From Actinomycetota bacterium (lineage in GTDB: Bacteria > Actinomycetota > Thermoleophilia > Solirubrobacterales > Solirubrobacteraceae), in the NCBI GenBank assembly GCA_009699505.1, contig WLOB01000003.1, forward strand, positions 1-37,105: a stretch of DNA of 37,105 bases, read 5' to 3'. Shown piece by piece: positions 13,441 through 31,902 of the stretch. The translations under genes were made by a program, and so were the position numbers. Within the stretch, counting starts at the first letter, position 1, and each line of letters begins with the position of its first letter. The notes beneath the pieces were generated by a model. It was not told where the DNA came from and searched no databases. It saw only the letters and a program-made list of their open reading frames with translations.

Positions 13441-15528
13441 ATGAGCGTCCGCCCGTCCGACATCTCCCGCCCGCGCGACGACTCCGCGCTGGGCATCTTC
13501 CGCCGCGCGATTACCTGGACGGCGCTCATCGCGGCGATCGTCTTCGTGCTCCTGACCGGCGTGCAGCTGGCCTCCCTGATCGACGGTGCACCGCGCCCGG
13601 CGTTCACTATCCGTGGATCGCTCGGCGAGCTGGTCGACCTCGCCAACCCCGACCAACCCCTCTCGCGGAAGGTCGCTTTGGGCGGCGGTCTGCTCGTCAT
13701 GGGCCTCGCGATGGCCGCGCTCCTGACGTCGATCACCAGCCAGGTCCTCAAGACCTCCGGCCTCGCCGAGCAGGACCGCCGTATGAAGGCGCAGCTCGAC
13801 GGCGCACAGTGGGCCACGCACGAGGACCTCGCGCCGCTCCTCGTGCAGCCCGGGCAGCAGCACAACCGCGTGGTGCTCGGCTACCCGCGTGGCACGACGC
13901 GACGGCCGACGGGCGAGCTGGCGGCCGTCGAGGCGGGGCATTCCGCGCTCGTCGTCGCTCCGACCGGCCAGGGCAAGACGGAGTCGGTGATGGCCCCGGC
14001 GATCCTCGACTGGGACGGCCCCGTCGTCGCGATCAGCATCAAGCGGGACCTGTACGACCTGACCGCGGGGCACCGCGTCACGCAGGGCGAGGTGCGGGTT
14101 CTCGATCCCGCGGGGGTCACAAGCCCCACAGAGGTGCACCACGCGTTTTGGAATCCGCTTCCAGCGTCGCGCGAGTGGCGTGCAGCGCGGCTGCTAGCCG
14201 ATCAGATGGCCGGGGTCGGCCAGCGCGGGACGCAGCAGAGCGACGCCGGCCAGTACTTCGCCGAGGCCTCCGGGCAGCTGCTCGCCGGCCTGTTCTTCGC
14301 TGCTGCGCACTCCGACGAGCCGTCGATGCAGACGGTCTCCGGATGGCTTGAGGACCCCGCCAAGACGATCACGGATCTCGAGATCCTGCTCACGAAGGTG
14401 ATGGAGGACCCCGAGACCGATCCGGAGGTCCGCGACAACTGCGTCTACGCGATGACGATGGTCCGCGTCGGCCTCGGCGGCAACGACCCCAAGAGCATCG
14501 AGCAGATCCGCCGAAGCGCGCTGGGCGTGATCCGCGCATGGGCCGACCACAGGCTCGGCCGTGTCGAGACGGACGACCCCGGCGTCCTCGGCCCTGACTG
14601 GCTGTGGGCCACACCCGGCGACGGCGAGCACCGGGGCCAGAACCGCACCCTCTACATCATGGGTCCCGACGCCGAGCAAGGCACCTACGAGGCCATGTTC
14701 GTCGGCGCCGTCGCGTCGATCTACAACGCCTACGCCCGCGCCATGATGGCCGGCGGCAAGAACGCCCCGAAGAAGCGCCTGCTGCTCGTCCTCGACGAGG
14801 TCGACAAGACCGCCCCGATCCCGAAGCTCGACACCTGGGTCACCGCCGCCCGCGGCCTCGGGATCAACCTCGTCATCGCGTGCCAGAACCTCGCGCAGCT
14901 CGACACCGTGTGGGGCCGCGAGAAGGCCGAGACGATCGTCTCCGGCCCCCGTGTGCGCATGTTCGGCCCCGGGCTCGCCGACCCGCAGACGCTGCGCTAC
15001 GTCGAGCAGATCTCCGGTCAAACCGGCGTCGTGTCGGAGAACGAGTCGCGCAACCCGTTCCTGCTGCAGGTCGCGACGTCGAGGCAGACGAACACGACGT
15101 GGCGGCCGCTGATTCCGCAGAACGAGGCCGCCGGCCTCGACCCGTTCACCGCGCTGACGTTCTACGGGGCGCTGCCGCCGTTTCAGGTGACGTGGCGCTC
15201 CGGTCACAACGACCCGGAGTTGAAGGCGCAGCAGCAGCTCACGCCCCCCGCCCCGCAAGAACTCGGCGACGGGGTGGATCTTGACCGTGGCGACCTGGGC
15301 GACGATGCCGGCGGCTGGTCCCGCCCGGCTCCCCCGCCTGCTGGCGATCGGTTCCCGAACAACGTCCCGCCGGAGGCCTACGACGACAGCGACGACGACG
15401 CCATGCCCGCCGACTACGACGCCGGCCACGAGAGCGCCGACGCGATGCTCGACCACGACTCCGACGACACCTACGACGACGAGTCCGACAACGACGACGA
15501 CCTCGGCGTCGGCGCCCTCGCCGCCTGA
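13441..15528 (+). CDS. VirD4/TraG-type coupling protein with acidic Asp-rich C-terminal tail
   Basis: VVAPTGQGKTESVMAPAILDWDGPVVAISIKRDLYDLT; LLLVLDEVDKTAPIPKLDTWVTAARGLGINLVIACQNLAQL; tail DDSDDDAMPADYDAG...DSDDTYDDESDNDDD. Confidence 0.9.
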   Translation: MSVRPSDISRPRDDSALGIFRRAITWTALIAAIVFVLLTGVQLASLIDGAPRPAFTIRGSLGELVDLANPDQPLSRKVALGGGLLVMGLAMAALLTSITSQVLKTSGLAEQDRRMKAQLDGAQWATHEDLAPLLVQPGQQHNRVVLGYPRGTTRRPTGELAAVEAGHSALVVAPTGQGKTESVMAPAILDWDGPVVAISIKRDLYDLTAGHRVTQGEVRVLDPAGVTSPTEVHHAFWNPLPASREWRAARLLADQMAGVGQRGTQQSDAGQYFAEASGQLLAGLFFAAAHSDEPSMQTVSGWLEDPAKTITDLEILLTKVMEDPETDPEVRDNCVYAMTMVRVGLGGNDPKSIEQIRRSALGVIRAWADHRLGRVETDDPGVLGPDWLWATPGDGEHRGQNRTLYIMGPDAEQGTYEAMFVGAVASIYNAYARAMMAGGKNAPKKRLLLVLDEVDKTAPIPKLDTWVTAARGLGINLVIACQNLAQLDTVWGREKAETIVSGPRVRMFGPGLADPQTLRYVEQISGQTGVVSENESRNPFLLQVATSRQTNTTWRPLIPQNEAAGLDPFTALTFYGALPPFQVTWRSGHNDPELKAQQQLTPPAPQELGDGVDLDRGDLGDDAGGWSRPAPPPAGDRFPNNVPPEAYDDSDDDAMPADYDAGHESADAMLDHDSDDTYDDESDNDDDLGVGALAA

Positions 15529-16062: not shown

Positions 16063-19000
16063 CTAGTAGCCGAGGCCGTGGCCAAGGTCGCGCGAGCGCT
16101 CGACCTGCCGCTCACGCTCGCGCACGATCTCTTGCTGCGGCCGGCTGAGCTCCATTCCACGATCCGCGCGCCAGAGCGCAAGATCGCGCTGCGGCGCGCC
16201 GGTGGTCTGCACCCACCGTCCCGGTGCCTCAGGCTGATTCCGGACGACGTCGGCGACCGCGATCCGGCCGGCGAGCTGGTCGTACTGCCGCCGCTCCTGG
16301 TCTGTCGCGAGATCGTCTCGACGCCCGAGAAGACGGGTCATCCGCGGCTGATCCAACGCCGCGGGTCCCGTCCTCACGACCTCCCGCTCGACCGCCACCG
16401 TGTTCTGCCTCGCCGCGACCGCATCGAGCCTGCGGCCGTCAAGCTCGTGCAGGACCTCGTCGACCGGACGGCCTCCGTGCTCCCGCTCGAACACCCCAAC
16501 ATTGTCCAGCGCGCGCTTCTGCTCGCGAGAGGCCTCGCCGATCTGCTCCGTCAGCTCCTCGCGACGGGTGCCCCACGCCTCGGCGGCGGCGAATCGCAGC
16601 CGCGACGGCTGCTTCGCCTCGTGAGCGACGAGCTCGGCCCGCAGGCGGTCGAGGCGCTGCCCGGTGTCGAAGGCGTCGGCCCGGACCGTCTTCGCGCGCT
16701 CGAGCGCCGGATCGCCACCCAGCTGCTTGTACGCCTCGCGCGCGCCGCGCAGATCCCGGATCGCCTGAGCAAGCTGCCGCTGGTGGACCGTCGGCGTGAT
16801 CCTCCGAGGCGCCGCGCGTTCCGGCGCCCGCTCGACCGCCGGCGCCTGCCGGTCAAGCCACCGCACCACCGCCGGATGCCCCGTCCCAAGCTGCTGCGCC
16901 GCGCTGAGCGCCAGGCCTCGCACGCGGTCCTCCCGCTCGTGGGCCTCGCGCTGCGCAAGGGCGGGCCGCTCGTGCTCCGGCACGCTGAGCGGGTCCATCC
17001 GACGGGTGGAGCGGTCGATCTGCATCCCGTGCACCCGATCGAGGACCTCGAGCAGCCCGTCGAGGTATCTCTCCACGGGCTCGCGGTCCCGACGGATCCG
17101 GGCCTGCGTCTCGTCCGCGTCGCCGACGTCGACGAGCTCGAGGCCGGCAAGCCGGTCGTCGAGGCGCTGCAGCTGCCGCTCGTCCCGCTCGACACCCTGC
17201 CGCACGGCGTCCTCCATCAGCCCACGGTCCGCGCGGGATCCGTCGGGGTCCTGCTCGGCGAGCAACCGCCTCGCGTCGTCGACCCGGGCCTGCAGCTGGT
17301 CGCGCTCGGCGAGCAGCTGCGCGTCACCACGGGCGTCGCGGGACCCGGCCCACGCGCCGCGGACCTCGCGGTCCAGACGGGTCAGGCGCGTCATCGCCTC
17401 CCGCGCCTCCGTGAGGAGGGCGTGGCGGTGCTCGTCGATCTCCGAATCCGACATCCGGTCCAGCCGCCCCGGATCCAGGGCGGCGCGGTTCTCGATCGCG
17501 ATCGCGGCCTCATGGTCCCGGCGCTCCGCCATCCCGCGCACCAGTCGCTCGAGGCCCTGCGGTCGGCTGTCGGCGACCGTGACGAGCTCCGCGCGGTCGC
17601 GGGTGCGGGTCAGGCCGACGTAGGCAAGATTCCGACCCAGTCGCGTCGGGTCCGGCGCGAAGAGGATCGACCGGTCCACCGTCATTCCCTGCGCCTTGTG
17701 CACCGTGCGCGCGTAGGCGTGCTCCACGGCGCGCCCGTCGGCGCCGGGCTCGAGCACGGCGCGCGGCAGCCGCACCTCCTGGCCGCGTCTGCTGCCGGCG
17801 ACCGCCCGGGCGGTGATCCCGTCGGCGCCGACATCGAGGACCTCGAACCGCTCGCCGTTCTCGATCGTCCGCCCCGCACTGCCCTCCTCGCGAACCGTCG
17901 CGGTGGCCACCAGGCGGTCGCCGGGCGCGGCGAGCATCCCGCCATACTCCCGCTCCCTGGACCGGTCGATCCCACCGCGGTCGACGACCACTCGGCGCAG
18001 CTGCTCGTTCAGCTCCCGCCGGTGCGTGTTCTCCGGCGCCATCACCACCAGCCGGTCAACGTCGCCGCCGACGGCCTCGAGCGCCCGCTCGTACCGGCCG
18101 ACGGCGGCGCTGTAGGCGTCCTCGACCGTCGGCTGGATCTCGATGCGGTCGTGCTGGTCCGCCCACCGCGTCCACCCCGACACGTCGCCGCGGTGCAGCT
18201 GATTCAGCCGGTCGCGCTCGACCTCGTCGCGCTGGCGATGCACCTCGGTCAACTGCAACACCGGGGCATTCTGGTGCTCGGCGAGATACCGAAACCAGCC
18301 GCCCGCGCCGACGGCCTGCAGCTGTACGTCGTCGCCGATCGCCACGACCTTCGCCCCCCGCTCCGCCGCCCGCGCCAGCAATGGCGCGATCTCCTTCGTC
18401 TGCGCCATCCCGGCCTCGTCGACGAGCACCACGGTCCGGTGATCCATCGTCCGCATCACCTTCGAGAACTCCCCATCCCCCAGCGCGGTCCGCGCAAGGG
18501 AGTCGCGCTGCTTCAGGCCGACGTCGTCGAGCTCGGCAAGCGCTTGCAGCGTCGGCGCGACACCCACGACCTTGAGGCCGTGCGCCTCGAACTCGCGCCG
18601 CACGAGCCCCGCAATTGTGGTCTTGCCCGCGCCGGCCCGGGCCCGGATGACCTCCACCCCGTGCCCGGAGGTGAGGACCTGGTCGAGCACGCGGCGCTGC
18701 TCGGTCGAGAGGGCGTGCCCGTCCGGGGTGACGGTGGGCGCCTCGTAGCCGTCCGTCTCGATCCGCGGAGCGGTCGTCTCGGCCATGCGGCCGATCGTGG
18801 CGTCGGCGACGCGCTGCTCGAGCTGCAGGTGCCGCTGCGTCGTCCACCGCGGCCGCTCACCGCCCGTGACCTGCGCCAGACGGGCGTCGTCGAACACCCG
18901 GCCGAGGGCCTGTCCGACCTCCTCGGCCGTGTAGCCCTCGGGCACCGACATCGCGGCCTGCCGGACGGCCCGGGCGTCCTCCGTCGACCGCTCCGCGGTC

Positions 19001-20043
19001 ACCGCGTGCAGCGGCGCGGCCTCCAACCGCTCCCCCAGCGTCCGCGGCCGCACCGCCACCTCGTCATCGCCAACGGCGCCAGCGAGCGCAAGCTCCCGCT
19101 CCGCCGGCGTCCGCACCAGCGCCTTCACCTGCTCGACCCCGAACCCATCGCGCTCGAGCGCGTCGCGGACCTCAACGCGCCAGAGACCATGGTCAAGGCC
19201 CATGTCCTTCGCGCGTCGCGACTCCAGCGCGACGCGCTCGGCCGCGGTCTTGGACCCTGCCGAGAGGCCGGCGTCGGCGAGGCCGCGCAGGATCTCCGCC
19301 CGCCGCGTGGAGTACCCCTCGATCAACCCGCGATCGAACCCCTTGATGTCCGCCAGACCGTTCACAGGCTGCTCGAACTCGAGCCCGAGCTCGCGACCGA
19401 GCTCGCCCCGCAGGACGGCCTGGTAGACGGTGCCGGCGGTCTTGGCCTGCTGGTAGAGCACCGGCGAGTTGATCGCCTGCGCGTCCCCCTTCTCGGGGCG
19501 CACGACGTTCGCCAGGACCGCGTGGGAGTGCAGCTGCGGGTCCGCGTTGCGGGTCGTCTCGTGCCGGTAGAGCACGCCGATGACCCCGGTCCCCTGGACC
19601 GTCACACGCTCCCGCGACCCGTCCTGGTGCCCGACCCGCGCCCTCCCCTTCCAGCCCTCCTGCTCGATGTAGGCCAGCGCCGCCATCACGGCGCGCTCGT
19701 GGGCCTGATCGACCGTCTTGGAGGTCTCCTCGTCGGCGGCCATCCGCAGCAGCGACACCGACTTCGGCGCCGAGAACGCGAGGTCAAACGCCACCGTCTT
19801 GCGGCGATCCATCCGGCCGCCGAGGTCCTCCCCGGTCGCCGGATTCGCTCCGTCGAGCATCAGCCGAAACGCTTCGACATCGACCTCCCCGGAGAGCCCC
19901 AGGGCCGCGGCTTGCGACCCGATCCAGGTCCCGGCCGGCCCTTCCGACTCGCGGTAGTAATCGTCGCGCGCCTGCACCAACTGGCGCTCGTGGTACTCCC
20001 GCTGCGCCGTATTCCCGGCGCTGACCGTCCCGATCGACAGCAT
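16063..20043 (-). CDS. MobF-family relaxase/helicase (TraA/TrwC-like)
   Basis: MLSIGTVSAGNTAQREYH; histidine motif HETTRNADPQLHSHAVLANVV; helicase Walker A RARAGAGKTTIAGL, VLVDEAGMAQT, AYARTVHKAQGMTVDRS. Upstream GTG at 20055 is possible. Confidence 0.92.
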   Translation of the reverse strand: MLSIGTVSAGNTAQREYHERQLVQARDDYYRESEGPAGTWIGSQAAALGLSGEVDVEAFRLMLDGANPATGEDLGGRMDRRKTVAFDLAFSAPKSVSLLRMAADEETSKTVDQAHERAVMAALAYIEQEGWKGRARVGHQDGSRERVTVQGTGVIGVLYRHETTRNADPQLHSHAVLANVVRPEKGDAQAINSPVLYQQAKTAGTVYQAVLRGELGRELGLEFEQPVNGLADIKGFDRGLIEGYSTRRAEILRGLADAGLSAGSKTAAERVALESRRAKDMGLDHGLWRVEVRDALERDGFGVEQVKALVRTPAERELALAGAVGDDEVAVRPRTLGERLEAAPLHAVTAERSTEDARAVRQAAMSVPEGYTAEEVGQALGRVFDDARLAQVTGGERPRWTTQRHLQLEQRVADATIGRMAETTAPRIETDGYEAPTVTPDGHALSTEQRRVLDQVLTSGHGVEVIRARAGAGKTTIAGLVRREFEAHGLKVVGVAPTLQALAELDDVGLKQRDSLARTALGDGEFSKVMRTMDHRTVVLVDEAGMAQTKEIAPLLARAAERGAKVVAIGDDVQLQAVGAGGWFRYLAEHQNAPVLQLTEVHRQRDEVERDRLNQLHRGDVSGWTRWADQHDRIEIQPTVEDAYSAAVGRYERALEAVGGDVDRLVVMAPENTHRRELNEQLRRVVVDRGGIDRSREREYGGMLAAPGDRLVATATVREEGSAGRTIENGERFEVLDVGADGITARAVAGSRRGQEVRLPRAVLEPGADGRAVEHAYARTVHKAQGMTVDRSILFAPDPTRLGRNLAYVGLTRTRDRAELVTVADSRPQGLERLVRGMAERRDHEAAIAIENRAALDPGRLDRMSDSEIDEHRHALLTEAREAMTRLTRLDREVRGAWAGSRDARGDAQLLAERDQLQARVDDARRLLAEQDPDGSRADRGLMEDAVRQGVERDERQLQRLDDRLAGLELVDVGDADETQARIRRDREPVERYLDGLLEVLDRVHGMQIDRSTRRMDPLSVPEHERPALAQREAHEREDRVRGLALSAAQQLGTGHPAVVRWLDRQAPAVERAPERAAPRRITPTVHQRQLAQAIRDLRGAREAYKQLGGDPALERAKTVRADAFDTGQRLDRLRAELVAHEAKQPSRLRFAAAEAWGTRREELTEQIGEASREQKRALDNVGVFEREHGGRPVDEVLHELDGRRLDAVAARQNTVAVEREVVRTGPAALDQPRMTRLLGRRDDLATDQERRQYDQLAGRIAVADVVRNQPEAPGRWVQTTGAPQRDLALWRADRGMELSRPQQEIVRERERQVERSRDLGHGLGY

Positions 20044-20237
20044 CAGCTCGCTCACGACTCTAGCACCCCTCCCAGGGCTGGGATACTGTGTGCGCACGAC
20101 GCCGAAGGCGGCGGGCGGGAGGCAGGCATGGTCGTGAGCGCTAGCGAACGGCCGGGCCGACGACCACGTTGGAACTCGGACAACGGGTCGCCAGCAGCAG
20201 CCTTCTGTGCTGGGTACATCAGGCGCCGCATGGCGCC

Positions 20238-21393: not shown

Positions 21394-21785
21394 GACCGCT
21401 CCCCCTCGATGCGATCGGCCAGGGCGTCGGCGTCGCGGGCGGGGATGTAGAAGACCATCCCCGTCGGGTGCGCGTTCGGGCGCGCCGACGCGGCCAGCAG
21501 CCGCAGCAGCCGCGCCAGGGCGCGGCAGTGATCGTCGGCCGGCGGGTCGACGATCACGCGGCCGTCGCCCTGAAAGCGCGGAGTCTGGAAGATCGGCGCG
21601 ACCCACGCGGCGTGCATCGCCAGCATCGACCGGCGCAGCTCGTCCGCGGCGTCCTCGGTCGCGCCGTGCGCGAGGTCGTGGCCGACGGAGAGGATCCACG
21701 CGAGCGTGTCGTGCTCGTCCTCGGTGATGACCAGCGGATCGCTGGTGGTGCCACGCACGGGCGCGGCGGTAGCCTGATTCGGCAT
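21390..21785 (-). CDS. Hypothetical protein, 131 aa; first gene downstream of leader RNA copy 1
   Basis: ATG with GAGG five nt upstream; ITEDEHDTLAWILSVGHDLAHGATEDAADELRRS. Confidence 0.7.
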   Translation of the reverse strand: MPNQATAAPVRGTTSDPLVITEDEHDTLAWILSVGHDLAHGATEDAADELRRSMLAMHAAWVAPIFQTPRFQGDGRVIVDPPADDHCRALARLLRLLAASARPNAHPTGMVFYIPARDADALADRIEGERS

Positions 21786-21843
21786 CGGAACCTCGATTTC
21801 CGGTGTGTCGCCCGCCGCCTGTTAGAGCAGTTCGGCGGGCCCG

Positions 21844-21876
21844 CCCCCCGGTGTCCGCGCCAACGGATCCGGGGGG
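21844..21876 (-). ncRNA. 5' leader hairpin, copy 1 (structured leader, unidentified)
   Basis: - strand CCCCCCGG-A-UCCG-UUGGCG-CGGA-CA-CCGGGGGG; 33 nt; same architecture and loop as 23620-23652. Confidence 0.7.
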
Positions 21877-21903
21877 TTCTTTGTTGGGGTTGCTGCTACG
21901 CAG

Positions 21904-21932
21904 ATCCTACCAAGCGAGTCCGGCAAATGCAA
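21904..21932 (-). promoter_or_regulatory. Sigma70-like promoter, - strand TTGCAT-17 bp-TAGGAT
   Basis: Near-optimal hexamers and spacer; sequence shared with 23673-23701. Confidence 0.75.
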
Positions 21933-21988
21933 GACTTTTTATGGTCGGATCCGTAGGTTTCTAGGGGTGATGTGCGGGGCGCGGGGGG

Positions 21989-22031
21989 CTGGGGGTGTCC
22001 CCCAGTGCTGACCGGCAGGACGCAGTCCTGC
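21989..22031. terminator. Two consecutive 7-3-7 stem-loops (terminator-like or structured intergenic)
   Basis: 21989-22005 CTGGGGG-TGT-CCCCCAG and 22015-22031 GCAGGAC-GCA-GTCCTGC, both perfect, 26 bp apart, downstream of the 22177-23595 operon. Confidence 0.55.
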
Positions 22032-22176
22032 GCGCCCTGGTCCTCTGCTCCTGGACGGTGGCTGAGGGGCTCCCGGAGGGACCGCGGGGCGCTCCTTTCC
22101 CTGCCGGGACGTTTCCCTCGATGCAGTCGGTGAACGGCGCGAGCTCGCGCCGCCGGTGGTCGGGGGCGCGGCGGGT

Positions 22177-22539
22177 CTACTTGCGGCGGCTGCCGGGCTT
22201 GGGGCCCCGCTTGCGTGGGGTCGCGCGCCAGAGGTCGATCGCGGCGGCGGTCCAGACTTCGCTGCGGCCGATCGTGCCGATCGGTTCGGGGAAGTCGTCG
22301 CGGCGCTTGCGGTGCGTGCGGACGGTTTCCGCGTCGACCCCCCATCGCTCGGCGATGTCCGCGATGCTGAGCAGGCCGCCGACGTCTTCGAGCGCCTGGT
22401 GTCGGCGCTCGGCGAGCTTCGCCCGGCGCGCCAGCTCCTCAAGGTCCGCCGGCTCCTGGTCGTCGCTCACGGGGTCGATCCTGCCGGACCGGCCCGACGA
22501 CACGCAGGGCGGTGCGGGTCGTCGGGCCTGGGCGCTCAC
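22177..22539 (-). CDS. HTH/excisionase-like small DNA-binding protein
   Basis: LLSIADIAERWGVDAETVRTHRKRRDDFPEPIGTIGRSEVWTAAAIDLWRA; GTG overlaps the upstream stop; alternative start at 22470. Confidence 0.75.
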   Translation of the reverse strand: MSAQARRPAPPCVSSGRSGRIDPVSDDQEPADLEELARRAKLAERRHQALEDVGGLLSIADIAERWGVDAETVRTHRKRRDDFPEPIGTIGRSEVWTAAAIDLWRATPRKRGPKPGSRRK

Positions 22540-22826
22540 CACTGAAACGTCGGGAGGCCGTCGATGGCGGCGCCGTCGGCGTCGAGGCGCAGGTAGTCGC
22601 AGCCCTGCGCCCGGGCGTAGTCGATCAGGTTCAGCAGACACGGCGCCTCAGCCCGCAGCTCCTCCCGCTCGTCGCCGTCGACCACGCGGGCGGGCGGCAC
22701 CCAGACCCACCACCCGTACTCGTACGCGTCGGCGACGATGTGTTCGATCGTCGACTCCCGCAGTGCGGTCGCTTCCCCCTCGGGGAGGTGCCCGGTCGTG
22801 GTGTCGAGGTAGCGGCAGACGGTCAA
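22536..22826 (-). CDS. DUF5983-like small protein
   Basis: TTG start overlapping the upstream TGA; pattern TGHLPEGEA...YGWWVWVPPARV...ARAQGCDYLRLDADGAAIDGLPTFQW. Family recalled from memory, not searched. Confidence 0.55.
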   Translation of the reverse strand: MTVCRYLDTTTGHLPEGEATALRESTIEHIVADAYEYGWWVWVPPARVVDGDEREELRAEAPCLLNLIDYARAQGCDYLRLDADGAAIDGLPTFQW

Positions 22827-23233
22827 AACGTGATCTCCGGCAGCGCGGCGGCGTCGGGGTTCCACGGCGGCTCGCCCGGGCCGAGGAACCACGGGTGCCA
22901 GCGGACCTGCCATCGGCCGCCGGTGTCGAGGTCGACGACCTCCGACGGCATCCACCCGTCGCGCATCGCGGGCGCAGCGTCGGCGAGCAGCACCGACGGC
23001 TCGTCGCCCAGCGCGATCGCCTCCCCCGCCCCGCGCCCCGCGTCGGCGTAGACCGACACCAGCAGGAACCGACCCGGGCGGGCCGGCACCCGGCGGGCCT
23101 CCTCCGACGTGTCGGCCAACTGCAGATCGTCGAGCAGCAGATGCATCCGCCGGATCCGGCCGCACGACCGCGGCAGTCCCGCGGCCTCCTCTCCGGCCCA
23201 GTCGGGGTTCACGAGGCAGCGCAAGCGCGGCAT
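22823..23233 (-). CDS. Hypothetical protein, 136 aa
   Basis: ATG overlaps the upstream TGA; MPRLRCLVNPDWAGEEAAGL...GWMPSEVVDLDTGGRWQVRWHPWF. Confidence 0.65.
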   Translation of the reverse strand: MPRLRCLVNPDWAGEEAAGLPRSCGRIRRMHLLLDDLQLADTSEEARRVPARPGRFLLVSVYADAGRGAGEAIALGDEPSVLLADAAPAMRDGWMPSEVVDLDTGGRWQVRWHPWFLGPGEPPWNPDAAALPEITF

Positions 23234-23595
23234 CAGGCCGCCACCGCCCCGAGGTCGGGGTGTACGGCGATGCCCTGATCCTCGGCCGCGGTCACCACGG
23301 GCGTGGTGACGTGCAGTTCGATCGGGTGGCCGGTGTCGAGGTCGTAGGCCGCGATCGGGCCCATCCCGGAGTCGAGGACCTCGCCGCCCGCGTGCTCGCA
23401 GAGGTCCTCGAACGTCGCGTGCGTCGAGGTGTGGTGCTCGCCGCGGTCGATCGCGACGTACAGCCACCGCTCGGCGGCCTGCTCCTCGACGTCGTAGCTG
23501 CCGATCGGGGCGTAGTGCTCCTCGATCACGCCGCGCCGGCTCTCGCGGAGCGCCTGGTCGTGCGCGGCCGGGGCCGCGCTAGCCTGGGGGTACAT
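23233..23595 (-). CDS. Hypothetical protein, first gene downstream of leader RNA copy 2
   Basis: MYPQASAAPAAHDQ...EEHYAPIGSYDVEEQAAERWLYVAIDRGEHHTSTHATFEDLCEHAGGEVLDSGMGPIAAYDLDTGHPIELHVTT; AGGAG 12 nt upstream of ATG. Confidence 0.65.
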   Translation of the reverse strand: MYPQASAAPAAHDQALRESRRGVIEEHYAPIGSYDVEEQAAERWLYVAIDRGEHHTSTHATFEDLCEHAGGEVLDSGMGPIAAYDLDTGHPIELHVTTPVVTAAEDQGIAVHPDLGAVAA

Positions 23596-23619
23596 GGGAG
23601 TGGGTAGCTCCTGTGTCAC

Positions 23620-23652
23620 GCCCCCGGAACCGCGCCAACGGTGGCCGGGGGC
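23620..23652 (-). ncRNA. 5' leader hairpin, copy 2
   Basis: - strand GCCCCCGG-CC-ACCG-UUGGCG-CGGU-U-CCGGGGGC; 33 nt; compensatory changes relative to copy 1. Confidence 0.7.
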
Positions 23653-23672
23653 TTCGTGGTTGGTGTGCCACC

Positions 23673-23701
23673 ATCCTACCGCGTGAGTACCGGGAAAGCA
23701 A
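23673..23701 (-). promoter_or_regulatory. Sigma70-like promoter, - strand TTGCTT-17 bp-TAGGAT
   Basis: Matches the promoter at 21904-21932 in hexamers, spacer length and much of the spacer sequence. Confidence 0.75.
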
Positions 23702-23718: not shown

Positions 23719-23758
23719 TTAGGCTCGGTTTTCCGGTCCTATCTGCTATGCTGTGTGC

Positions 23759-24010
23759 ATGGTCGATCCGCGGTTCCCCTCGATGAAGGCGAAGCAGCTT
23801 CGTCGGGTCATCGACCGCCTCGGCTACGTTCGGGCGCGGAAGGGTTCGGGGTCGCACCAGACGTTGAAGGCGCCGGGTCGTCCGACGATCGTGTGGGCGC
23901 ACCACGACGGTGCGACGCTCGCGCCGGGTCTGGTGCACGCGGTGCTGTGCAAGCAGATCGGGCTGGACGTTGAAGAGGCGTTGGCCCTACTCTCCAAGAA
24001 GGGACGATGA
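23759..24010 (+). CDS. hicA: HicA-family toxin
   Basis: MKAKQLRRVIDRLGYVRARKGSGSHQTLKAPGRPTIVWAHHDGATLAPGLVHAVLCKQIGL; GTG at 23753 is an alternative start. Confidence 0.8.
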   Translation: MVDPRFPSMKAKQLRRVIDRLGYVRARKGSGSHQTLKAPGRPTIVWAHHDGATLAPGLVHAVLCKQIGLDVEEALALLSKKGR

Positions 24011-24252
24011 ACGTGCGGATCCTCCATCACCACGAGCCGCCGTATGGCTGGTGGTTTGACTCCCCCGACGTGCCGGGCCTGTCCGGCAGCGCGGACACGC
24101 TCGCGGTCGCCCGGGGCGAGGCGGAGAGCGTCGTGCGCTGGCACCTGACGTGCGAGGCCGAGGAGGCGGGCCTGCCCGCGCCCGACATCGCCGCGGTCGA
24201 GTTCGAGCACTTCGTCAACGACCCCGCCGCCGCGGTCCCCGCCGCGGCCTGA
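24007..24252 (+). CDS. hicB: HicB-family antitoxin (partial HicB-like fold, no obvious DNA-binding tail)
   Basis: ATGA overlap with hicA; PYGWWFDSPDVPGLSGSADTLAVARGEAESVVRWHL. Confidence 0.75.
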   Translation: MNVRILHHHEPPYGWWFDSPDVPGLSGSADTLAVARGEAESVVRWHLTCEAEEAGLPAPDIAAVEFEHFVNDPAAAVPAAA

Positions 24253-26568: not shown

Positions 26569-26613
26569 ATGTTTGCCACGCTCGCAACCGCCCGTCGGCG
26601 CGCTGCGGCGTGA
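26569..26613 (+). CDS. Putative 14-aa leader ORF MFATLATARRRAAA overlapping the methylase start
   Basis: ATG at 26569, in-frame TGA at 26611-26613 overlapping the GTG at 26610 (GTGA). Confidence 0.35.
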   Translation: MFATLATARRRAAA

Positions 26614-28364
26614 GCACCCAGGCGAACCTCTTTCCGGCCGCTCTGGCCGCTCGAGATCTCGGAGCACGAGGGTCGCGCGCACCAGTAGGAAATGCCGACC
26701 CTGCGGCCGCTCTGGGCCCGACATCCTTGGCGGTACTGGCAGCGATCCCGGCGTGGTGGGAGGCCCGAGCGCGGACGGCAGGCTTGACGGGTTCGTGGCT
26801 GGACATCGAGCATGCCCTCCAGGTGCAGCTGCCCGACGACGTCCGGGCGACGCGGCCTGACCGGGCGATCACGACCGACGCGCTTCCCGACGAGATCGGG
26901 GCGGCGTATGCCGCGTCGTTGGACCCGGCGACACGTGCCCGGCACGGCCGCCACTACACCCCGCGGCACCTCGCCGAGCATCTGTGGTCGATGACCCGGA
27001 CCGCGCTTGGGCACCGAGCCCCCGCCAGATCGCTGCGCGGCCTGGTACGCGACCCCGCTTGCGGCGCCGGCGTGCTGCTCCTTCCAGCGCTCCGCGAGCA
27101 CCTCGGCGCGATTGTGCGCGCGGACGCCCGCGTCGCGTTGGCCGGTCTTCCGAACGTCATCGAGGGCATTGATGCGGACCCCGCCGCGGTATGGGTCGCC
27201 AACGCGGTACTCGCGGCCGAAGCACTTCCGCTCCTGGCCGCGGTGCCCGCGCGCCGCCGGCGACCGTTGCCCGCGCTTGCGCACGTCGGCGACGGGCTTG
27301 CTGCCGGCAGGCAACAAGCCCGCGCCGTGATCATGAACCCGCCCTACGGCCGGGTGAAGCTGTCGCCGAACGAACGGGAGCGGTTCGCCAACGTCCTCTA
27401 CGGCCACGCGAACCTTTACACGCTGTTCATGGCGGCCGGGATCGACGATCTCGACCAGCACGGCGTGCTATCCGCGCTGGTCCCGACGTCGTTTACGGCG
27501 GGGCGCTACTTCGCAACCCTCCGCCACGAGCTCAGCCAGACCGCCCCGCTGCGCGACGTCGCGTTCGTCGCTCAACGCGACGGCGTCTTCGCCGGCGTGT
27601 TGCAAGAGACGTGCTTGGCGGTCTTCACGAAGAAGAAGCCCCGCAAGACCGCGATCGCGGAGATCAACGGCCGCGTCTCGACGGTCGCTCGCGTGCGCTC
27701 TCCGCGAGGGCCGCTGCCGTGGCTTCTCCCTCGCCGTTCTGACGACGCCCACATCGCCGCGGCCGCGGCCGCGATGCCGATGACGCTGCTGGCGGCCGGC
27801 TGGCGGGCGTCGACCGGGCCGCTGGTCTGGAACCGGCGGCGCGCGGACCTCTCCGCCACCCGCCGGAAAGGGTCCGTGCCGATCGTCTGGGCGGCAGATC
27901 TCGACGGCGGAACGCTGCACCGCGATCCCTCTCGCGACGCGACGCGCTTCATGACCTTTCGGGACCCCGCTGACCGAGGCACGTTCGTTCTCGAGGAGCC
28001 CGCGATCCTGGTCCAGCGAACGACCGCGCCTGAGCAGTCGCGCAGGATCGTCAGCGCGAAGCTCTCCGCGGAGGATCTGGAGCGCTGGGGCGGCGCGGTC
28101 GTGATCGAGAACCACGTCAACGTCCTACGCCCGGTCGCCGACGCCGAGCAGCTCCTGTCGTTCGATGCGCTCGCGACGCTTCTCTCAACGCAGACCGTCG
28201 ACCAGGTCATGCGGTGTCTGGCGGGATCGGTCGCGCTGAGCGCCTACGAGCTTGGGGCCCTGCCACTGCCCTCCCCGGCCACGATCACCGCCTGGTCCAC
28301 CCTGAACGGCGACGACCTGCGGGCCGCGGTCCTCGATGCCTACCGGCCGGAGACGACACCATGA
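26610..28364 (+). CDS. N6-adenine DNA methyltransferase of a BsuBI/PstI-like type II R-M system
   Basis: DPACGAGVLLLPAL (SAM motif), VIMNPPYGRVKL (NPPY), LSALVPTSFTAGRYFATLR; adjacent endonuclease. Confidence 0.88.
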   Translation: MSTQANLFPAALAARDLGARGSRAPVGNADPAAALGPTSLAVLAAIPAWWEARARTAGLTGSWLDIEHALQVQLPDDVRATRPDRAITTDALPDEIGAAYAASLDPATRARHGRHYTPRHLAEHLWSMTRTALGHRAPARSLRGLVRDPACGAGVLLLPALREHLGAIVRADARVALAGLPNVIEGIDADPAAVWVANAVLAAEALPLLAAVPARRRRPLPALAHVGDGLAAGRQQARAVIMNPPYGRVKLSPNERERFANVLYGHANLYTLFMAAGIDDLDQHGVLSALVPTSFTAGRYFATLRHELSQTAPLRDVAFVAQRDGVFAGVLQETCLAVFTKKKPRKTAIAEINGRVSTVARVRSPRGPLPWLLPRRSDDAHIAAAAAAMPMTLLAAGWRASTGPLVWNRRRADLSATRRKGSVPIVWAADLDGGTLHRDPSRDATRFMTFRDPADRGTFVLEEPAILVQRTTAPEQSRRIVSAKLSAEDLERWGGAVVIENHVNVLRPVADAEQLLSFDALATLLSTQTVDQVMRCLAGSVALSAYELGALPLPSPATITAWSTLNGDDLRAAVLDAYRPETTP

Positions 28365-30209: not shown

Positions 30210-31253
30210 TCAAAGCATCGCGAGGTCGGGGTCTTCGGCGGCGAGGAGGTAGCGGGCGGTGGTTGCGGAGCTCCGGTGGCCGAGTCGGCGTTGCAGCGTG
30301 CCGAGCGTGAGCGGCTTGCCGTCGGGGCGTTGGGTGGGGTCCAGCTGGCCGAGGGCGTAGGCGTGTCTGAGCGCGTGGGGGTAGATCGTGCCGGGCGGGA
30401 GCGCGATCGCGTCGCCGAGGGCCTGCAGGATCCGCCCGACGGTCCGGGTGCTCATCGGCGCGTCGGGGGAGGCGACGCGGCCGCGGCGGCCGCCGGCGGC
30501 GAGGGCGGGGATCGCGGGATCGCCGGCGCGGTCCGGGAGGTCGGCGATCTTGTCGAGGTGCTCGAGGGCGCGGAGAACATCGGCGCCGACGGGAACGGTG
30601 CGGGCCACGCCACCTTTTCCCTCGAGGACGTCAATCGACGCGGCGCGCGCGACGGTGGCGCGGCCGTGCGCGGCGGCGAGCAGCTGCGCGCGGGGTCGGG
30701 CGGGCCGGATCTGGGCGCGCTTGAGCGCGACGGCTTCGGAGACGCGCAGGCCGGTGTCGGCGAGCAGCGCGACGATCGCGGCGCCGTGCGCCTGGCGGAG
30801 CGGGTCGCCCGGGAACGCGGTCGCGGGGGCGATCTGGCGCAGCGCGAGGACCTGTGCCGGGGTCGGGGCCTTCGGGGGCCGGTCGTCGCGGGAGCGCGGG
30901 CGGTCGACGCGCTCGAGCGCGCGGAGGACGTCGCCGGGAACGAATCCGGCGTCGACGAGCCACCGGGTGCAGGAGACGACGCCGGTCATCGCCTGGCGGA
31001 CGGTGCCGGCGCGGGCGCCTTCGTCGGCGAGGTCGTCGCGAAACTCGGCGAGCGAGACCGCGGAGACCTCGCCGTAGCGGTCGATCAGCCGCTCGATCGC
31101 CCGGCGGTACGCGCGGCGGGTGTGCGGCGAGGCCAGCGACATGGCCCACGCGTCGATCGCGGCCACGAGCGCCTGGTGCTCCCCCTCCCCCGGGTGCAGC
31201 TGCAGCTGCACCCCATCGTCGACATCGGCGGCGTCGACCTCGGTTGCACTCAT
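30210..31253 (-). CDS. Tyrosine recombinase/integrase (XerC/D-like)
   Basis: ALLADTGLRVSEAVALKRAQI (Arg I), YPHALRHAYALGQLDP (HxLRH), LGTLQRRLGHRSSATTARYLLA (LGH...Tyr). Confidence 0.92.
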   Translation of the reverse strand: MSATEVDAADVDDGVQLQLHPGEGEHQALVAAIDAWAMSLASPHTRRAYRRAIERLIDRYGEVSAVSLAEFRDDLADEGARAGTVRQAMTGVVSCTRWLVDAGFVPGDVLRALERVDRPRSRDDRPPKAPTPAQVLALRQIAPATAFPGDPLRQAHGAAIVALLADTGLRVSEAVALKRAQIRPARPRAQLLAAAHGRATVARAASIDVLEGKGGVARTVPVGADVLRALEHLDKIADLPDRAGDPAIPALAAGGRRGRVASPDAPMSTRTVGRILQALGDAIALPPGTIYPHALRHAYALGQLDPTQRPDGKPLTLGTLQRRLGHRSSATTARYLLAAEDPDLAML

Positions 31254-31902
31254 CCGCCGAGCGCGCGGTCGGCGACGAGCGTCATCGCTTCGGCCAGCCG
31301 GGCGGCGTGGTGCCCGGACAGGCCGGCGGTGCGGCGCAGGTCGACGGGCTCGCCGTCCAGCAGTGACCGGGCGACCTTCGCCAGCACGATCGCGTCGGTG
31401 GACCGCCGCTCCGGGTCGAGGACCCGGGGCAGTCGACGACGAGCTCGTCGACCCAAATCGAGGTGCGGGGGTCGGGGCTGCGGCGCTCCTCGACCTCGCG
31501 GATCTCGACCGCTCCGCGCAGGTCGGGCTCGTTGAGGTCGGCCTGCAGCAGGATCCGGGCGGCGGGTACGGTCCGGCGGCCGCGGTAGACGCCGGGCCCG
31601 ACCGTGGCCGGCGTCGACGCCGACGTGCCGGCGGGCAGGACGTCGATCGGTGCGCGCGAGCGGCGGCCGGCGGCGGCGCGCAGGTCGTGGCTGTTGGTCG
31701 CCTCGACCCACCCCTCCCCGCTGCCGTCCTCCTGCGGATCCTCCGCACCGGCGTGGACCTGCAGGCGGACGGTCGCGCTGACGACATCGCCGGCGCCGGT
31801 GCGCGTCACCCACGGCACCACGCGGTGCGGCAGCCCCAGCTCGTCGGCGATCTCGAGCAGGAACGGCAGCCGCTCCGCGATCGGCCCACGGTCGATACTC
31901 AC
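31250..31902 (-). pseudogene. Gene split by a frame change near 31426-31429 (frameshift, sequencing error, or -1 frameshifting)
   Basis: N-terminal frame starts GTG 31902 overlapping the stop of 31899-32111; C-terminal frame ends TGA overlapping the integrase ATG; the frames join as ...VDELVVDCP/RVLDPERRSTDAIVLAKVARSLL... Confidence 0.7.

Follow-up and report, generated by a model that had tools for sequence, protein, structure and literature searches.

Two-hairpin leaders with a putative internal antisense promoter on two operons of an actinobacterial conjugative element and on phage nuclease and recombinase genes

In the IncI plasmid ColIb-P9, and in the related IncB and IncL/M plasmids, a short cis-antisense RNA (the Inc RNA of ColIb-P9, which targets the repZ leader) governs translation of a replication gene, with a pseudoknot formed to a downstream CGCCAA. 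5'-UUGGCG-3' is named as the target-loop motif of the Inc RNA in the title of a paper by Asano et al. (1998) that is listed among the references of PMC10724649 and PMC3753616. The cis-antisense RNA FinP pairs with the ribosome-binding site (RBS) region of traJ in F plasmids and restrains conjugation (PMC9977716), and the antisense RNA CfrI of cyanophage S-PM2 adjoins a homing endonuclease gene and links psbA with F-ChpI (PMC12197685). Restraint of free-standing phage homing endonucleases and recombinases is known mainly from RBS-sequestering leader hairpins of the T4 type, such as those of I-TevI, mobE, segB and seg43 of phage 25 (described in sections of PMC2988022). Here we describe two leaders within a 37,105-nucleotide (nt) stretch of DNA (the window), which is one contig, WLOB01000003.1, of an actinobacterium whose 4.37-Mb assembly is incomplete. 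Each contains a hairpin with a UUGGCG loop (HP1) and a second hairpin bearing the Shine-Dalgarno (SD) sequence (HP2), and each probably constitutes a countertranscript, or antisense-RNA, module.

A preliminary description of this DNA had given the sequences and coordinates of the two HP1 hairpins on the - strand (Table 1), their shared loop, two compensatory stem changes between them and how far each lies from the ATG (24 and 58 nt), and all of these proved to be correct. The corresponding 41-nt stretches of copies 1 and 2 fold into the expected hairpin at -25.4 and -25.6 kcal/mol, with z-scores of -2.8 and -2.6 against shuffles, and each is preceded by a promoter of the form TTG.../TAGGAT whose two elements are 17 nt apart. 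No further hairpin with a UUGGCG loop is present elsewhere in the window, and the 4.37-Mb assembly contains no further copy in which this loop is joined to a CCCCCGG stem. Two copies alone constitute weak evidence of covariation, and the proof is supplied by relatives in phages.

Searching IMG/VR viral contigs with the UUGGCG-loop hairpin pattern returned 108 stretches, compared with 13 for a reversed-loop control, and nearly all of the 108 are stable hairpins with matched stems. In a set of 39 phage HP1 sequences, whose outer stem is conserved and contains one bulged C, 99.3% of pair cells were paired and 56 double changes were counted against 15 in shuffles (0/500). Stem variation in this set is confined to three inner pairs; the outer six are invariant partly because the set was selected for them, and are thus uninformative. 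A covariance model of these 39 sequences, in which no window sequence was included, ranked the two window hairpins first and second in the window, with the next place at E = 0.44. The same model gave two strong matches in 199 genomes of the class, one of which (L553, from the same bacterial family) is a near-copy of window leader 2 that shares the spacer cgTGGCACAGGAG-N7-CTCCCATG, has a different loop and lies near an integrase-like gene. A genome scan found at least 118 stretches in many phyla, chiefly in Streptomyces, Micromonospora and other actinobacteria, and leader relatives are also present in the named Solirubrobacterales Patulibacter (L389) and Solirubrobacter (L382). Three features fix which strand of HP1 is sense: the gene downstream, the bulged C, which phage copies have on the 5' side, and, for one subfamily, the spacer TGGCCGAC. 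The preliminary description had not recognised the hairpin as a named RNA motif, and the window had no match in Rfam 15 at the gathering score and nothing relevant at E values up to 10, and of 13 relatives compared with Rfam 15 only tRNAs were matched. HP1 belongs to a real, widespread and covarying leader module that is absent from Rfam at the thresholds used and apparently undescribed. We rejected a chromosomal origin, as the pattern CCGG..CCGTTGGCGCGG is scattered over 54 of 399 genomes of the class with a reversed-pattern control of similar order, and only one of the loci taken had even a partial hairpin. Nothing related to the region or to either of the two first proteins was present in plasmid records, and viral contigs contained no relatives of the window relaxase.

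The loop is not a hallmark of the family. Read in the mRNA sense it is CGCCAA in many matches and UUGGCG in many others, and samples collected without regard to the loop refute its invariance. Homologues of an endonuclease VII-type HNH protein, gathered blind to the hairpin, keep the frame and have the loops CUGGAA, CGGGAA, CGUCAA, CUACCAA, CUGGUAA and CGCCAA; a scan that used only the spacer and the SD yielded at least 120 stretches with likewise variable loops, mostly of the form C-NNN(N)-AA. The TTGGCG loop is not a general background of phage hairpins (0 of 81 other perfect 6-nt-loop hairpins in the same loci), and mimicry of an anticodon arm, considered for 7-nt loops such as CUUGUAA, was dropped since many loops are six bases long and lack the anticodon shape. 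Among near-identical recombinase leaders (L355 compared with L124, L399, L370 and L346) the stem is kept and the one difference is an inversion of the loop octamer (GTTGGCGC or GCGCCAAC), which suggests that hairpin loops are inverted in place. Separately, six Hymenobacter loci have short hairpins in which GTTGGCGC lies between A and T runs, like ordinary bidirectional terminators, and terminators may also commonly use this loop as a stable one.

The conserved leader extends well beyond HP1, with HP2 situated between HP1 and the start codon and an antisense -10 located inside the coding sequence (CDS). HP2 has a loop, usually of seven bases, in or next to which the SD is placed, and over 66 leaders defined by their spacer its stem has a mean length of 4.73 bp, compared with 3.07 +/- 0.14 when the 3' arms are permuted among leaders; the arm pairs seen include CGACU/AGUCG, CGAUCU/AGAUCG, CGAACU/AGUUCG and CGACAC/GUGUCG. 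Both window leaders have such a hairpin directly before the start codon, and the form found in copy 2, with the SD in the 5' arm, is common to L553, L382 and L338. The leaders also share a sense -10 positioned 12-20 nt 5' of HP1, with a sense TANNNT 4-26 nt 5' of HP1 in 43 of the 66 against a background of 2.5%.

On the opposite strand, ANNNTA (an antisense TANNNT, in codons 3-5) stands at CDS offset 7 in 56 of the 66 leaders, compared with 0.11 leaders per position elsewhere. This placement is independent of the encoded protein and lies at a fixed 31-36 nt from HP1. TANNNT is rare in the window (20 on the + strand and 18 on the - strand), and the antisense version TAGCCT occurs only twice on the + strand, both times at CDS offset 10 of a leader gene; its distance from HP1 is 34 nt in copy 2 and 68 nt in copy 1, the latter due to an extra hairpin in leader 1. 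Ts beside HP1 number 4.6 per 10 nt on the antisense side and 1.4 on the sense side, and HP1 of copy 1 read on the + strand is a terminator-like hairpin followed by the T-rich tail TTCTTTGTTG. A third candidate leader, before the GTG-started relaxase gene (antisense TACTGT, ANNNTA at CDS offset 8, 20084-20097), was discarded as there is no HP1-like hairpin upstream. In HNH_3 genes of other phages (seven loci) we also observed two-hairpin leaders with very different stems and loops, in which the sense -10 is directly 5' of HP1 and the antisense -10 is at CDS offset 12-14.

HP1 could be nothing other than an intrinsic terminator that keeps the promoter region free of antisense or read-through transcription and so insulates the mobile gene, with no regulatory antisense RNA involved. 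We consider this unlikely: the U-rich side does fall mostly on the antisense strand, and insulating terminators are known in mobile elements such as Tn916 (abstract of PMC11658703), but neither the fixed spacing between the antisense -10 and HP1, nor HP2, nor the C-NNN-AA loop pattern would be explained. Far less probable, in our view, is a plain pair of 5' hairpins that stabilise the mRNA or enhance its translation without regulation in trans, which would suit a strong hairpin near the 5' end and an SD displayed in a 7-nt loop while leaving the antisense -10, the antisense T tract and the diversity of loops unexplained.

The combination of a variable loop, an inverted octamer, a precisely placed antisense -10 and an antisense U-rich tract argues that the leaders respond to a countertranscript and not to a protein. 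A cis element that binds a protein or senses a ligand and thereby controls translation of both operons, which the position in the leader, the adjoining SD hairpin and the conserved outer stem of the phage copies might indicate, would have to tolerate a loop that varies and can be inverted, is accompanied by no partner gene and does not account for the antisense -10; we regard it as distinctly improbable. The suggestion made in the preliminary description, of a cis-regulatory element or protein-binding site co-ordinating two accessory operons, is retained insofar as a cis-regulatory leader element on both operons, acting near the ribosome-binding site, is supported, and abandoned with regard to a protein site with an invariant UUGGCG. 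The test that it had set, of further homologues, covariation and no existing Rfam family, came out in its favour, save that the loop is not conserved.

In the countertranscript mechanism that we favour, the sense promoter would start the operon mRNA just 5' of HP1, and an opposing promoter within the first codons would produce a short antisense RNA from near the start codon (~70 nt in copy 2 and ~105 nt in copy 1) that copies HP2 and ends at HP1, the latter serving as a terminator on the antisense strand. Both strands of the window leaders fold into matching hairpins with complementary loops, UUGGCG and CGCCAA. Sense HP1 and its antisense counterpart HP1' would meet by loop-loop kissing, after which pairing would extend and either hide the SD or expose the duplex to cleavage, such that translation of the operon would be held down in proportion to element dosage. 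This convergent pair of sense and antisense promoters around two hairpins would act like CopA, Inc RNA or FinP; that the antisense RNA is made, represses and kisses loop-to-loop is what we infer from the sequences. As the same loop is present in both window leaders, the antisense RNA of one could also contact the target of the other and so link the two operons, and the shared UUGGCG is best explained by a common kissing specificity or by recent shared ancestry, and not by an invariant site for a protein.

The leaders resemble the ColIb-P9 type in having a stem-loop with a UUGGCG loop, a short cis-antisense RNA and control of translation (both predicted here); however, the target there is a replication gene and here homing endonucleases, recombinases and operons of integrative and conjugative elements. 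A pseudoknot of the IncI/IncB type was rejected, as neither window leader has a CGCCAA between HP1 and the start codon. As with FinP and traJ, the setting is a conjugative element, leader 1 being located upstream of a relaxase gene further along the same strand, whereas the sequence and the target gene are unrelated and no FinO-like protein was met, although none was sought. T4-type leaders likewise place hairpins on phage homing endonuclease genes, but there the switch is promoter choice, and the sections of PMC2988022 cited above do not describe an antisense promoter. CfrI, too, is an antisense RNA that adjoins a phage homing endonuclease gene, but is not a leader countertranscript of the endonuclease. 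The SAS/ESAS repeats at gene starts of cluster K mycobacteriophages, some with inverted repeats (PMC3203893), differ in being 17-bp imperfect repeats with a GGGATAGGAGCCC box in many copies per genome, in contrast to one hairpin per locus with a covarying stem. Within the open-access literature we found no antisense leader of the HP1-HP2 kind, and CfrI was the only antisense RNA found on phage HNH genes.

A number of observations weigh against the countertranscript explanation. Both the sense and the antisense transcripts are predictions from DNA sequence, the antisense U tracts of the window are interrupted, and no -35 is evident at the antisense promoter, so that its prediction depends entirely on the -10. 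Strict-consensus promoter scans of the window gave no match; the consensus required was too strong for the antisense -10 to be picked up. HP1 of copy 1 scores better on the + strand, whereas copy 2 scores better on the - strand, and leader 1 contains the extra hairpin; both points make copy 1 a looser fit to the family. Finally, the genes directly behind the window leaders have no family match and no known function. A homing endonuclease or recombinase in this position is a trait of the majority of the family rather than a universal one, and the window genes do not share it.

Elsewhere in the family such genes predominate. The 66 proteins behind the spacer-defined leaders include matches to HNH_3 (13), endonuclease VII (10), HNH (8), HNH_5 (8) and GIY-YIG-related domains (7), with overlapping memberships, while among 62 other proteins of the same contigs HNH_3 was matched in one. 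Genes for tyrosine integrases, serine recombinases and a Mu B-like ATPase are likewise preceded by leaders that the loop pattern recovered. The hairpin is found at the start of the annotated HNH gene adjoining lysin A in phage Ramsey, and in a Paracoccus phage it directly precedes an HNH gene that has been inserted in the orientation opposite to that of the late operon. In several Streptomyces genomes (six loci and others) a family leader precedes a gene for MAK(T/S)GYGKR-type proteins, perhaps a conserved Streptomyces mobile-element gene. More generally, and with chances that we put slightly below even, a portable antisense-RNA module may be a general means of restraining selfish genes for nucleases and recombinases, both in phages and in integrative elements, its frame (promoter, bulged GC hairpin, SD hairpin and antisense promoter inside the CDS) being conserved while the kissing loops diversify into mutually blind "incompatibility" groups, and elements like that of the window sharing a loop to couple operons. 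If true, such compact leaders, widespread and equipped with their own antisense promoter, would represent a regulatory solution in common use, and dozens of unnamed hairpins before HNH genes could be ascribed to a single mechanism. Such leaders can be searched for directly with the covariance model and the antisense -10 rule, and the diversity of loops offers a natural set of orthogonal RNA regulators.

Table 1. Features of the two leaders and of the surrounding element (window coordinates)
Feature	Position	Strand	Remarks
Copy 1 sense -35 (TTGCAT)	21927..21932	-	17-nt spacer to -10; layout as copy 2
Copy 1 sense -10 (TAGGAT)	21904..21909	-	one of only 18 TANNNT on window - strand
Copy 1 HP1, loop UUGGCG	21844..21876	-	fold; phage-only covariance model E = 0.001 on +
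Copy 1 extra GC hairpin between HP1 and HP2	21810..21840	-	fold; most relatives without it
Copy 1 HP2, CGGAA-AUCGAGG-UUCCG, SD in 7-nt loop abutting AUG	21786..21802	-	fold; geometry as phage HP2
First gene behind leader 1, 131 amino acids	21390..21785	-	family match: none
Copy 1 antisense -10 (TAGCCT), CDS offset 10	21770..21775	+	
Copy 1 predicted antisense RNA, ~105 nt	21782..21886	+	predicted from antisense -10 and T-rich HP1' end
Copy 2 sense -35 (TTGCTT)	23696..23701	-	
Copy 2 sense -10 (TAGGAT)	23673..23678	-	
Copy 2 HP1, loop UUGGCG	23620..23652	-	fold; phage-only covariance model E = 0.0075 on -
Copy 2 HP2, SD GGAG pairs with CUCC before AUG, 7-nt loop	23597..23611	-	fold
First gene behind leader 2, 120 amino acids	23233..23595	-	family match: none
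Copy 2 antisense -10 (TAGCCT), CDS offset 10	23580..23585	+	
Copy 2 predicted antisense RNA, ~70 nt	23592..23662	+	predicted from antisense -10 and T-rich end TTCGTGGTTG
TraG/VirD4 coupling protein	13441-15528	+	
TrwC relaxase	16063-20097	-	
HicA toxin	23753-24010	+	
BsuBI/PstI-type restriction system	methylase 26610-28364, endonuclease to 29467	both +	
Integrase	30210-31787	-	

The gene content of the 37 kb shows that the window carries a conjugative, integrated element (Table 1). In operon 2 the 120-amino-acid gene is followed by genes for a DUF5983 protein and an excisionase-like helix-turn-helix protein, and a 16-bp inverted repeat (94%) at 22491-22528, directly 3' of the DUF5983 gene, is a candidate terminator or regulatory hairpin within the operon. 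The HicA gene is followed by a small overlapping gene (23753-24252, +), both transcribed away from leader 2, and the two probably form a toxin-antitoxin pair adjoining the regulated operon 2.
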